NCBI RefSeq assembly: GCF_024363565.1
Contig: NZ_JAJEKE010000001.1
Span: 248,001-312,000, forward strand
DNA length: 64,000 bases
Direction: 5' to 3'
From: Lutispora saccharofermentans
GTDB lineage: Bacteria > Bacillota > Clostridia > Lutisporales > Lutisporaceae
Part shown: positions 4,701-61,493 of the stretch, in pieces
How positions within the stretch are numbered: position 1 is the stretch's first letter
How the letters are laid out: each line of letters begins with the position of its first letter
Notes under the pieces: generated by a model
The model's database searches: none
Told to the model about the DNA's origin: nothing
Seen by the model: the letters and a program-made list of their open reading frames with translations, nothing else
Program-made: the position numbers and the translations under genes

Positions 4701-4741
4701 GGAATATGAAAAGATGATCATCCCCTCCCTCCGAAGGTTGA

Positions 4742-4911
4742 AACGATAATTGGCAGGTTTCCTGGCTCATGGTTCATCTTACTCTCCTGCCTTCTCGATT
4801 TCCCAATGGCATAGTCGGATTTCATCCCATATACAGTAGCGGGGGCTGCAGCAGGTTTTAACTGCTTTCCCTTTTAACCTTATGCACTTTTAATATATGC
4901 CTAAGGCACCA
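4742..4911 (-). promoter_or_regulatory. Cobalamin (adenosylcobalamin) riboswitch
   Basis: On the minus strand the leader of cobT carries the conserved cobalamin-aptamer landmarks in order: the GGTGCC start, the AAAAGGGAAAGC segment, CTGC(AG)CCCCCGCTACTGT, the ATGCCATTGG region, and the B12 box AGCCAGGAAACCTGCC (4751-4767). The aptamer is expected to bind adenosylcobalamin and favour the downstream terminator, switching off the cob operon. It sits between a consensus promoter and cobT. Confidence 0.95.
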
Positions 4912-4933
4912 AAAATGATATTCTATTGCTTTA

Positions 4934-7631: not shown

Positions 7632-7816
7632 CCATGCCCCAAAATGCCGTTAGATTTAACCTTACACCTGCACTCACGCAGGTGGGTGTCTTAATTCATA
7701 CTTCAATCCACCAACAAGACGAAGGCTCGATTTTCATATGGATACACAGACTCCCGTATACTCATTGTAGGTTAAGGTTAAACATCCAACCAACATCTCA
7801 GGTAAAATAGTTTCCT
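7596..7816 (-). ncRNA. Candidate small structured RNA gene, family not recognised
   Basis: A complete transcription unit about 220 nt long with no credible reading frame fills the gap between cotJA and the NCS2 permease. It has a promoter (7823-7851), a long closing stem (10 bp between 7773-7782 and 7655-7664, extended by 6 bp between 7785-7790 and 7649-7654 across a 2-nt bulge), an internal 7-bp hairpin (CACCTGC/GCAGGTG, about 7666-7685), and a strong terminator (7596-7631). This overall plan, a long closing stem plus separate terminator, is that of a stand-alone regulatory RNA. I could not assign it to a known family; 6S and raiA RNAs are the ones to test. Confidence 0.7.
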
Positions 7817-15796: not shown

Positions 15797-15811
15797 AAGT
15801 ATTACTCTCCT

Positions 15812-15940
15812 TCTATATTCGCTTCCGAAGTTAGCTGACGGGTTCGGGAAAGAAGGCTCCCTACCAAGATATTTCTCGGACTAACCCCTCTATTTGGTTC
15901 CTCCGTACCCGGCATCACCGGGATTCAGCTTAGTGTAGTT
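15812..15940 (-). promoter_or_regulatory. c-di-AMP riboswitch (ydaO/yuaA class)
   Basis: The minus-strand leader shows the conserved ydaO landmarks in order: GCTGAATCCCGGTGATGCCG, GGTACGGAGGAACC, a GGGGTTAGTCC segment, GGTAGGGAGCC, CCCGAACCCGTCAGCTAAC and TCGGAAGCGAATA. Members bind c-di-AMP and generally turn off cell-wall hydrolase or ion-transport genes. The 3' end runs almost into the AGAAGGAGAG ribosome-binding site. No clear terminator separates aptamer and start, so control of translation is possible. Confidence 0.93.
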
Positions 15941-59872: not shown

Positions 59873-60361
59873 TTAACCGTTATTATGATTATTGTCATGT
59901 ATGACTTGATCTATAACGATGACCAGGGCTAATATAAAGGCGGAATTCTCTCCTTCTGCTATATCCACTCCATAGGTGTCTCTGAATGTAAACCACTTCT
60001 TGGATACTTGTGCAGCAATACATCCGTCCTTTACTATGTCAAAATCCATGCCCCAGTAGTTGCCCTCAATGGTGTAATTTCCTATAAAGCTTTCTATATT
60101 GAATCTTGGTTTGAAGAAGGTAAATTCCTTTTTTACCCTTGCAGCAGGGCTTCCATTATAATAGATAGTATATTCGGGAAGCAGCTTGAACAGCTTTTGT
60201 TCAATATAAACCAGCTCATTTCCCTGCATATCATATATCCGCAGCTTATCTCCAAAGGAAAATACTTTTCCTCGCACCTGATAATGAGGATTGCCCATCT
60301 CATCATCTATTGTAAAATTATCGCCAAAAGAAAAAAACTTCTGCTTTATCATAAAGCGCAT
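59873..60361 (-). CDS. LURP-one-related (LOR/YxjI-like) protein
   Basis: The 162-residue protein is made of short beta-strand repeats around phrases such as FSFGDNFTIDDEMGNPHYQVRG, KVFSFGDKLRIYD and FTFFKPRFNIE, the pattern of the tubby-like LOR fold. It has no signal peptide; the C-terminal segment FILALVIVIDQVI is hydrophobic. Function in bacteria is unknown. The start is ATG 60359-60361 behind GGGAGGG; the earlier in-frame start overlaps that site. Downstream, 59757-59872 shows nothing distinct. Confidence 0.83.
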   Translation of the reverse strand: MRFMIKQKFFSFGDNFTIDDEMGNPHYQVRGKVFSFGDKLRIYDMQGNELVYIEQKLFKLLPEYTIYYNGSPAARVKKEFTFFKPRFNIESFIGNYTIEGNYWGMDFDIVKDGCIAAQVSKKWFTFRDTYGVDIAEGENSAFILALVIVIDQVIHDNNHNNG

Positions 60362-60497
60362 AAATAGCCCTCCCATAATTTATTTTATATCCAAACTTTT
60401 TTAATTGTCCTCCTTAGTATAATATCACCTTTAAAAGCTATATATTCCCATCATATCAAAAAGAGGATCGGCTCTCAATGCCAATCCTCATATATAT

Positions 60498-60615
60498 TGA
60501 ACGAGACTTCATTCAGAGGGGGATTCAACCCCCACTGAATGTTAGTCGAGTCCATACTGGACTTAGCCGCTCTTGGCACCCGCCGCCCATAGAGGCGGGG
60601 GTCTTAGAGCGGGTT
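60498..60615 (-). mobile_element. IS200/IS605 right-end / omegaRNA-like relic without tnpA or tnpB
   Basis: On the minus strand several nested stems follow each other: CCGCTCT / AGAGCGG enclosing a GC-rich CCCCCGCC / GGGCGGCGGG hairpin, then GTCC / GGAC, then CATTCAG-x-GGGGG / CCCCC-x-CTGAATG (60510-60541), ending GAAGTCTCGTTCAA. This series is what I know from the right ends of clostridial IS605-type elements, where it forms the guide RNA scaffold of TnpB. No transposase or TnpB frame lies nearby. It begins 15 nt after the TtcA-like stop codon. The family assignment is from memory of the pattern, not from a search. Confidence 0.55.
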
Positions 60616-60629
60616 AGTTCAGTGATAAA

Positions 60630-61493
60630 TCATTCATCATAAAAATCCAGGTAGGAAAAGCGCTCTCGTCCTTTTTGCCAGCCCAGGATTGCTTCCATAT
60701 TTACATTTTGAGTTGCTCTCATAATATTTACCTCTAAATTATCTATTTTCCCGCTGAGCTCCTTTATCAAATCCTTAACTTCATACCGCTTGTTCCCTGT
60801 CCTCTCCGCTGCCACCATGCAGGCACAGTTGAGAGGGGTTATCCCGCTGCTCCGGGTAAAGCGCTCTATGTGCTTCTCTTCTATATAATACATGGGCCTT
60901 ATCAGCTCAAGCCCTCTGAAATTTGTAGATCTGAGCTTCGGCAGCATGGTCTTGAAGCTGCCGGTATAGAGAATATTCATCATCGTTGTCTCTATTACAT
61001 CGTTAAAGTGATGGCCCAATGCCAGCTTATTGCATCCCAGCTCCTGAGCTTTGGAATACAAAGCCCCCCTTCGCATTTTGGCACACATATAGCAGGGGTA
61101 ATCCTGGGCAATCTTATCAACTATTTTAAAGATGCCTGAATCAAAAACTTTAACGGGTATATTCAAATATTCGCAGTTTTCCAGCATAAGCTTTTTTATT
61201 TGCTGATGATAGCCCGGATCTGCTACTATGAATTCCAATTCTATCTTCATATCACCGTAACGCTGCAGTTCCTGAAAAAGCTTGGCCATAAGGATGCTGT
61301 CCTTACCGCCTGAGATAGCTACGGCAATCTTGTCGCCTTCCTCTATGAGCCTGAAATCCTTTATTGCTTTAATAAATTTTGACCACAAATATTTCCTGTA
61401 CCTCTTTATTATGCTCTTTTCTATTTCTTCTAAGGGCTTTAATTCATTATCAGGCAGCAATGTCTTGCAGCCCGGTCCTTTTACGCTATCCAA
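60630..61493 (-). CDS. TtcA-like tRNA 2-thiolation protein (PP-loop ATPase)
   Basis: This is a PP-loop ATPase of the TtcA/TtuA group that inserts sulfur in tRNA. The 287 residues have the PP-loop SGGKDS (about 60-65), a CYMC pair (about 133-136), the GHHFNDVIETTMMN motif (about 156-169) and further cysteines in LNCACM (about 223-226). The cysteines may bind an Fe-S cluster as in TtcA; assignment to 2-thiocytidine-32 is probable but not certain. It starts at TTG 61491-61493, 4 nt after GAGGTGA. Confidence 0.9.
   Translation of the reverse strand: MDSVKGPGCKTLLPDNELKPLEEIEKSIIKRYRKYLWSKFIKAIKDFRLIEEGDKIAVAISGGKDSILMAKLFQELQRYGDMKIELEFIVADPGYHQQIKKLMLENCEYLNIPVKVFDSGIFKIVDKIAQDYPCYMCAKMRRGALYSKAQELGCNKLALGHHFNDVIETTMMNILYTGSFKTMLPKLRSTNFRGLELIRPMYYIEEKHIERFTRSSGITPLNCACMVAAERTGNKRYEVKDLIKELSGKIDNLEVNIMRATQNVNMEAILGWQKGRERFSYLDFYDE

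Follow-up and report, generated by a model that had tools for sequence, protein, structure and literature searches.

A probable ends-only IS200/IS605-type element family of Lutispora saccharofermentans, in which an internal DNA guide covaries with the target site

A block of hairpins behind a ttcA-like gene of Lutispora saccharofermentans is very probably one copy of a non-autonomous (ends-only) IS200/IS605-type element, one that would pick its landing site by base-pairing of a built-in DNA guide and would be moved by a Y1 transposase supplied in trans. The block lies in the window, that is, the whole stretch of 64,000 nt of genomic DNA that was analysed. The assignment to the IS200/IS605 type is made because covariation between guide and target matches the DNA-guide rule of IS608, and because the right end fits that rule as well. 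The family is new, unusually abundant and subject to natural guide switching; in kind it is ordinary. The features of the locus are the following.

60497-60624, minus strand: non-autonomous element, from CACTGAACTAACC to GAATGAAGTCTCGTTCAA, placed by copy alignment and by empty sites in congeners
60625-60629, minus strand: target site TTTAT, kept 5' of the left end, with no duplication on the right side (87-copy consensus, empty sites)
60602-60605, minus strand: left guide AAGA, element positions 20-23, its last base proposed to pair with target position -1 (covariation)
60579-60601, minus strand: left hairpin, 8 bp with a one-base C bulge, its base directly 3' of the guide (sequence, fold)
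60567-60612, minus strand: outer stem CCGCTCT/AGAGCGG around the guide and left hairpin
60549-60563, minus strand: middle hairpin AGTCCA-GTA-TGGACT, the site of the 44-bp insert in longer copies
60544-60547, minus strand: candidate right guide GACT, proposed from its fit to the IS608 rule with cleavage site TCAA
60510-60541, minus strand: right hairpin CATTCAG...CTGAATG (fold, copy comparison)
60497-60500, minus strand: right cleavage site TCAA, the same as IS608 C_R, invariant in aligned copies
60630-61493, minus strand: upstream gene for a PP-loop ATPase (TtcA-like; PF01171, 4e-16), its stop codon abutting TTTAT
60463-60489, minus strand: intrinsic terminator downstream of the element
59873-60376, minus strand: downstream gene for a LURP-one-related protein (PF04525, 7e-24)

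The exact unit was defined by alignment of copies together with empty orthologous sites. All 30 of the first aligned copies had common boundaries, CACTGAACTAACC on the left and GAATGAAGTCTCGTTCAA on the right, and because they give a single boundary on each side, the window copy is taken as 60497-60624, a complete element of 128 bp lying directly 3' of TTTAT. An earlier, sequence-only reading of this DNA had noticed a multi-hairpin block ending in GAAGTCTCGTTCAA, which is indeed present on the minus strand, and had placed it at 60498-60615. The block is real, but that span misses the first nine bases of the left end, and the 15-nt gap said to separate it from the gene is actually five bases, the TTTAT target. 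The ends of the supposed orphan IS605 right end are of IS200/IS605 type and come without transposase or tnpB, as had been proposed, but it is neither a lone right end nor an excision scar, as a left end, a right end and internal hairpins are all present and are repeated about 74 times. A hairpin test found a subterminal hairpin at the left end and at the right end, and the block folds at -66.8 kcal/mol, compared with -37.0 +/- 3.9 for dinucleotide shuffles (z = -7.7). Both hairpins show compensatory changes among copies, and in the outer stem a single double change, U-A/C-G, occurs in 11 of the 23 distinct copies.

The host genome (G000) comprises 4.32 Mb in 37 contigs. A DNA search of it gave at least 40 near-identical copies among the matches listed, and further copies were obtained by a search with a covariance model (R1), the matching stretches then being inspected, which brought the number with both ends to about 74, plus deleted derivatives. 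The right-end motif, with at most one mismatch, occurred 106 times in this genome, against 0 for a reversed control pattern, well above what chance would give. Size classes of about 128, 173 and 190 bp were recognised, along with a few other copies of 90 to 223 bp. In the longer classes a hairpin insert of 44 bp is found at a variable internal position, apparently a second repeat nested in the element; this hairpin repeat of about 44 bp, GCCCCAGGGCACCTTCTCTTGCCC...GGGGCAATTCACCTT, was seen at varied positions in copies L065 (1501-1673), L200, L201, L202, L208 and L214. Judged by their sequences, the 56-bp copies look as if the DNA between two ACTAAC direct repeats had been deleted, and the 22-bp remnants are consistent with a deletion between CACTGAA repeats. 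One 56-bp copy (L229) shares its flanks with a group of full copies, and therefore at least that deletion arose in place.

Other repeats were encountered around the copies. A larger dispersed repeat, GATAAAAGAGTGCAG ... TGTGAAGGGGCTTAGAG, with CTGATAA/TTATCAG ends, carries an inserted element and seems to have spread together with it; it forms the flanks of L029, L067, L178, L180, L182, L183, L185-L187, L205 and L229, and is free of the element at that site at L230, near L014 and near L018. At L223 and L227 there are palindromic derivatives made of two right ends face to face, TTGAACGAGACTTCATTCAG...CTGAATGAAGTCTCGTTCAA.

Insertion of the element leaves no target duplication. Orthologous empty sites for L022 and L028 were found in the congener G002, where the joined flanks differ by one junction base each. 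A third empty site, for L008, was accepted allowing for substitutions: the locus is uninterrupted in both G002 and G001, and its length in G002 agrees with that of an empty site. At L008, L019, L022 and L028, removal of the element restores a spanning reading frame. A TIR-type MITE of a DDE transposase was considered and rejected, there being no target duplication and, in place of long terminal inverted repeats, only TGAAC/GTTCA in inverted orientation near the ends. Over 87 copies, the target pentamer has T (73/87), T (78/87), T>C>G/A, A (85/87), and then either T or A.

The choice between T and A at this last position is tied to the element itself. Copies with AAGA 5' of the left hairpin stand after ..AT, and those with AAGT stand after ..AA. 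Guide-target pairs in the host genome were A-T 26, A-A 3, T-A 14 and T-T 0 (Fisher p = 9e-9); a second genome set gave A-T 12 and T-A 13, with none discordant (p = 2e-7), although these p-values overstate independence, because copies are related, and are indicative only. The combined 71 copies with guide A or T comprise 64 Watson-Crick pairs (38 A-T, 26 T-A), four T-G wobbles and three A-A mismatches. An unbiased scan compared every element column with every target position. The last guide base and target position -1 shared a mutual information of 0.685 bits, while the next column reached 0.247 and the best of 300 shuffles, taken across all columns, 0.242; the other target positions had no comparable partner column. 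Matched pairs, i.e. the closest copies with differing guide base, were chosen to lessen the effect of kinship, and in 24 of 30 the target had changed as predicted (reverse, 0), at divergences as low as 2.4%. About 11 guide switches were counted by parsimony on a tree that was built without the guide column and is weak, and the association persisted within different stem backgrounds and within G004 alone. The exceptions to the pairing rule are the three A-A cases, and guides ending in C, which disobey it.

In IS608, left guide AAAG goes with site TTAC and right guide GAAT with site TCAA, with the pairs A16:T-3 and A17:T-4 (PMC5934647). From these two published guide-site pairs, the fourth guide base would be expected to meet target position -1. 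On the left the element follows the IS608 rule, in that AAGA accompanies TTAT and AAGT accompanies TTAA. On the right, where the family offers no usable variation, the combination GACT/TCAA conforms to it, and GACT is regarded as the candidate right guide. At the right end of related elements in G042 and G060, AACT occurs with TTTA, and a full IS605 of the congener G004, used as a positive control, has GAAT-hairpin-GTGTCAA there.

We infer single-strand Y1 chemistry and action in trans. The top strand, once single-stranded, would fold into the left and right hairpins, to which a Y1 (HUH) transposase supplied in trans would bind. The cuts would fall 3' of TTTAT at the left end and 3' of TCAA at the right end, positioned by pairing with the guides AAGA and GACT, respectively, and the excised circle would insert 3' of a new site picked by pairing of the left guide with TTTAT. 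Replacement of the final A of the guide by T would retarget a subfamily to TTTAA. No preference for one replication strand emerged: the orientation of copies showed no bias relative to local GC skew (40/72, p = 0.41), the skew of 1.5-3 kb flanks being a weak proxy.

The likeness to IS608 and ISDra2 extends to insertion 3' of a short AT-rich target that is kept on the left without duplication, and to subterminal hairpins with a guide 5' of the left one and a candidate guide 5' of the right one, a right TCAA, and guide-target pairing (PMC5934647). The element differs in having no tnpA or tnpB within its 128 bp overall, in a left guide that is 4 nt further in than that of IS608 (+20 to +23 versus +16 to +19), and in a family with two natural guide alleles and two target classes. 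An ends-only IS605 has been described before, the 271-nt PATE (palindrome-associated transposable element) of Halanaerobium hydrogeniformans (PMC7290912), in which, likewise, the palindromic ends alone remain and movement in trans is presumed. PATE, however, is single-copy with its parent in the genome, whereas the present element has about 74 copies in several size classes, and no parent was found.

At the window locus, the element lies in the 3' UTR of the ttcA-like gene, since the intrinsic terminator comes after it, in agreement with its earlier placement in the tail of that gene's mRNA. Alignments with L129 and L135 show that, in congeners lacking the element here, the LURP-one-related gene directly adjoins the ttcA-like gene. 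In G002 this site is occupied by the element too (its sequence there includes an assembly gap), which dates the window insertion to before the two species separated. The window copy is old and ancestral and is probably inert, and nothing points to a host function for it. Elsewhere, copies L006, L007, L011, L021, L023 and L026 are situated at the 3' end of a gene on the opposite strand, whose stop codon can be provided by TTGA of the right end. The minus strand of the window also has a cobalamin riboswitch (4735-4928), a c-di-AMP (ydaO) riboswitch (15805-15940) and a 6S RNA (7632-7807), all above Rfam gathering scores.

A host-recruited RNA or DNA regulator, such as a 3' UTR stabiliser, a bidirectional terminator or an sRNA, would suit the strong, conserved fold with its compensatory changes, the 52 of 58 copies that are intergenic, and the transcription of the window copy in a 3' UTR. 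This reading is nevertheless very improbable: some copies interrupt genes, the sites are scattered and have empty orthologues, size variants and deletions are common, and it gives no reason for the covariation of guide base and target.

The sequence-only reading had likened the block to the guide RNA of a TnpB, i.e. an orphan TnpB right end specifying a trans-acting omegaRNA, with the sequence downstream of the block as guide. The block does resemble TnpB omegaRNA and RAGATH-18 in being a hairpin array that ends at an IS right end. Its ends are IS605-like with the right end on the 3' side, it is transcribed within the 3' UTR of a gene, and TTTAT resembles known TAM-type sequences. Even so, this explanation is scarcely credible. 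The R1 model gave no credible match as the end of any tnpB/tnpA locus examined in G000, the congeners or four class-level relatives, and thus no tnpB-linked homologue of the block, an outcome that the sequence-only reading had itself named as refuting. The window had been said to lack tnpB and tnpA, and the genome-wide search gave no match inside it. The sole tnpB of G000 carries, on its 3' side, a guide RNA of the RAGATH-18 family, which has been shown to guide IS607 TnpB (PMC11061315), while Rfam searches of the block at gathering and permissive thresholds (E up to 10) gave no credible match, RAGATH-18 included. No tnpB was detected in the element-bearing genomes G002, G005 (97% complete), G061 and G062, Paradesulfitobacterium being among such genomes; the copies in Paradesulfitobacterium and in G002 are numerous. 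Finally, the guide information is located in DNA of the left end, which points to internal DNA rather than to the downstream flank as the guide.

Several individual loci were inspected in these searches. At L031 (G000 C12:105620-108997), an IS607-type tnpA fragment, which on its sequence we read as an IS607-type resolvase, precedes the intact tnpB ORF with its RAGATH-18 RNA. A match near a tnpB/tnpA locus (L095) was weak (E = 0.68) and was discarded. One good match, L040, is an element copy about 740 bp from a RAYT-like gene, a proximity that is not surprising because the copy number is high.

Matches to the element were found in all five congeners (1 to 42 each), in 0 of 16 other genomes of the same family, and, as weak candidates only, in a few more distant genomes. 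In a pattern scan the carriers were Lutispora species (L. thermophila DSM 19022 and MAGs among them), Paradesulfitobacterium ferrireducens and one Thermoanaerobacterales MAG. Most matched pairs between Paradesulfitobacterium and G000 copies are 3-9% apart, and this close match implies lateral transfer. The phages, plasmids and viral contigs searched had no match to the element. Distant model matches in G031 and G047 were left out as members, as their ends differ; those in G031 (L076, L085) and G047 (L075, L084, L092) belong to a different short repeat of 90-94 bp with CTGCGC...GCGCAG-type ends and a look-alike hairpin pair, which has many copies in G047.

The host genome has one tnpB and eight Y1 genes (three IS200-like, five RAYT-like), all outside the window. 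None of the IS200, IS605 and RAYT-like genes found has the element's ends, and no right end searched in G000 (at most one mismatch) is part of an autonomous element. Those for which no left end was detected were considered as a possible parent and rejected, since they are remnants of 22 bp, decayed copies or pieces of other repeats. The congeners and the two distant hosts share no candidate transposase. This leaves two possibilities, a parent that has died out in these genomes or action in trans by one of the Y1 proteins found there.

A rival reading, which we consider rather unlikely, is a REPIN/BIME-like element moved by a RAYT-like Y1 and not by a classical IS200/IS605 TnpA. RAYT-like Y1 genes are present in genomes with several copies (five in G000, three in G002, four in G004, one each in G005 and G061, two in G062), and in Paradesulfitobacterium they are the only kind of Y1. 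REPs have been proposed to be non-autonomous elements, and their GTAG can act as a guide (PMC8266576); like REP/REPIN sequences with their RAYT (TnpA-REP), the element is short, hairpin-forming and of high copy number, with presumed Y1 action in trans (PMC3116915, PMC8266576). It is, however, longer and asymmetric, its two ends differ from each other, it follows a clear target rule, and it has neither a GTAG tag at its hairpins nor an inverted REP doublet. In G000 the RAYT-like genes have unrelated GTGCCAGGCAC-type flanking ends, and their proteins are only about 40% identical to those of Paradesulfitobacterium, while the elements of the two are 3-9% apart in matched pairs; a common RAYT clade was sought and not found. 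In L. thermophila (G001) there are five element matches, and no full-length RAYT-like gene was found.

The five RAYT-like Y1 genes of G000 (L036-L040, on C2, C13 and C12), some of them apparently truncated, have their own surroundings. L037-L039 are bounded by GTGCCAGGCACGACGTTTAGAC inverted repeats, and L036 and L040 by variants of these, which is unusual for RAYTs. RAYTs are thought not to move themselves.

Returning to the preferred reading of an ends-only IS200/IS605-type element, a more far-reaching version would see a family with repeated natural guide switches (about 11), from TTTAT to TTTAA, moved across bacterial classes by a RAYT-like, non-classical Y1. This extension is doubtful; if true, the RAYT-like-driven family would be a guide-using relative of REP mobilisation. 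For the annotation of TnpB guide RNAs the present case is a caution, as what looks like an orphan omegaRNA can turn out to be an ends-only element. The guide rule of IS608 came from structure and engineering, and dozens of natural insertions now give an independent statistical reading of it, within a single family, that includes wobble pairs and natural retargeting.
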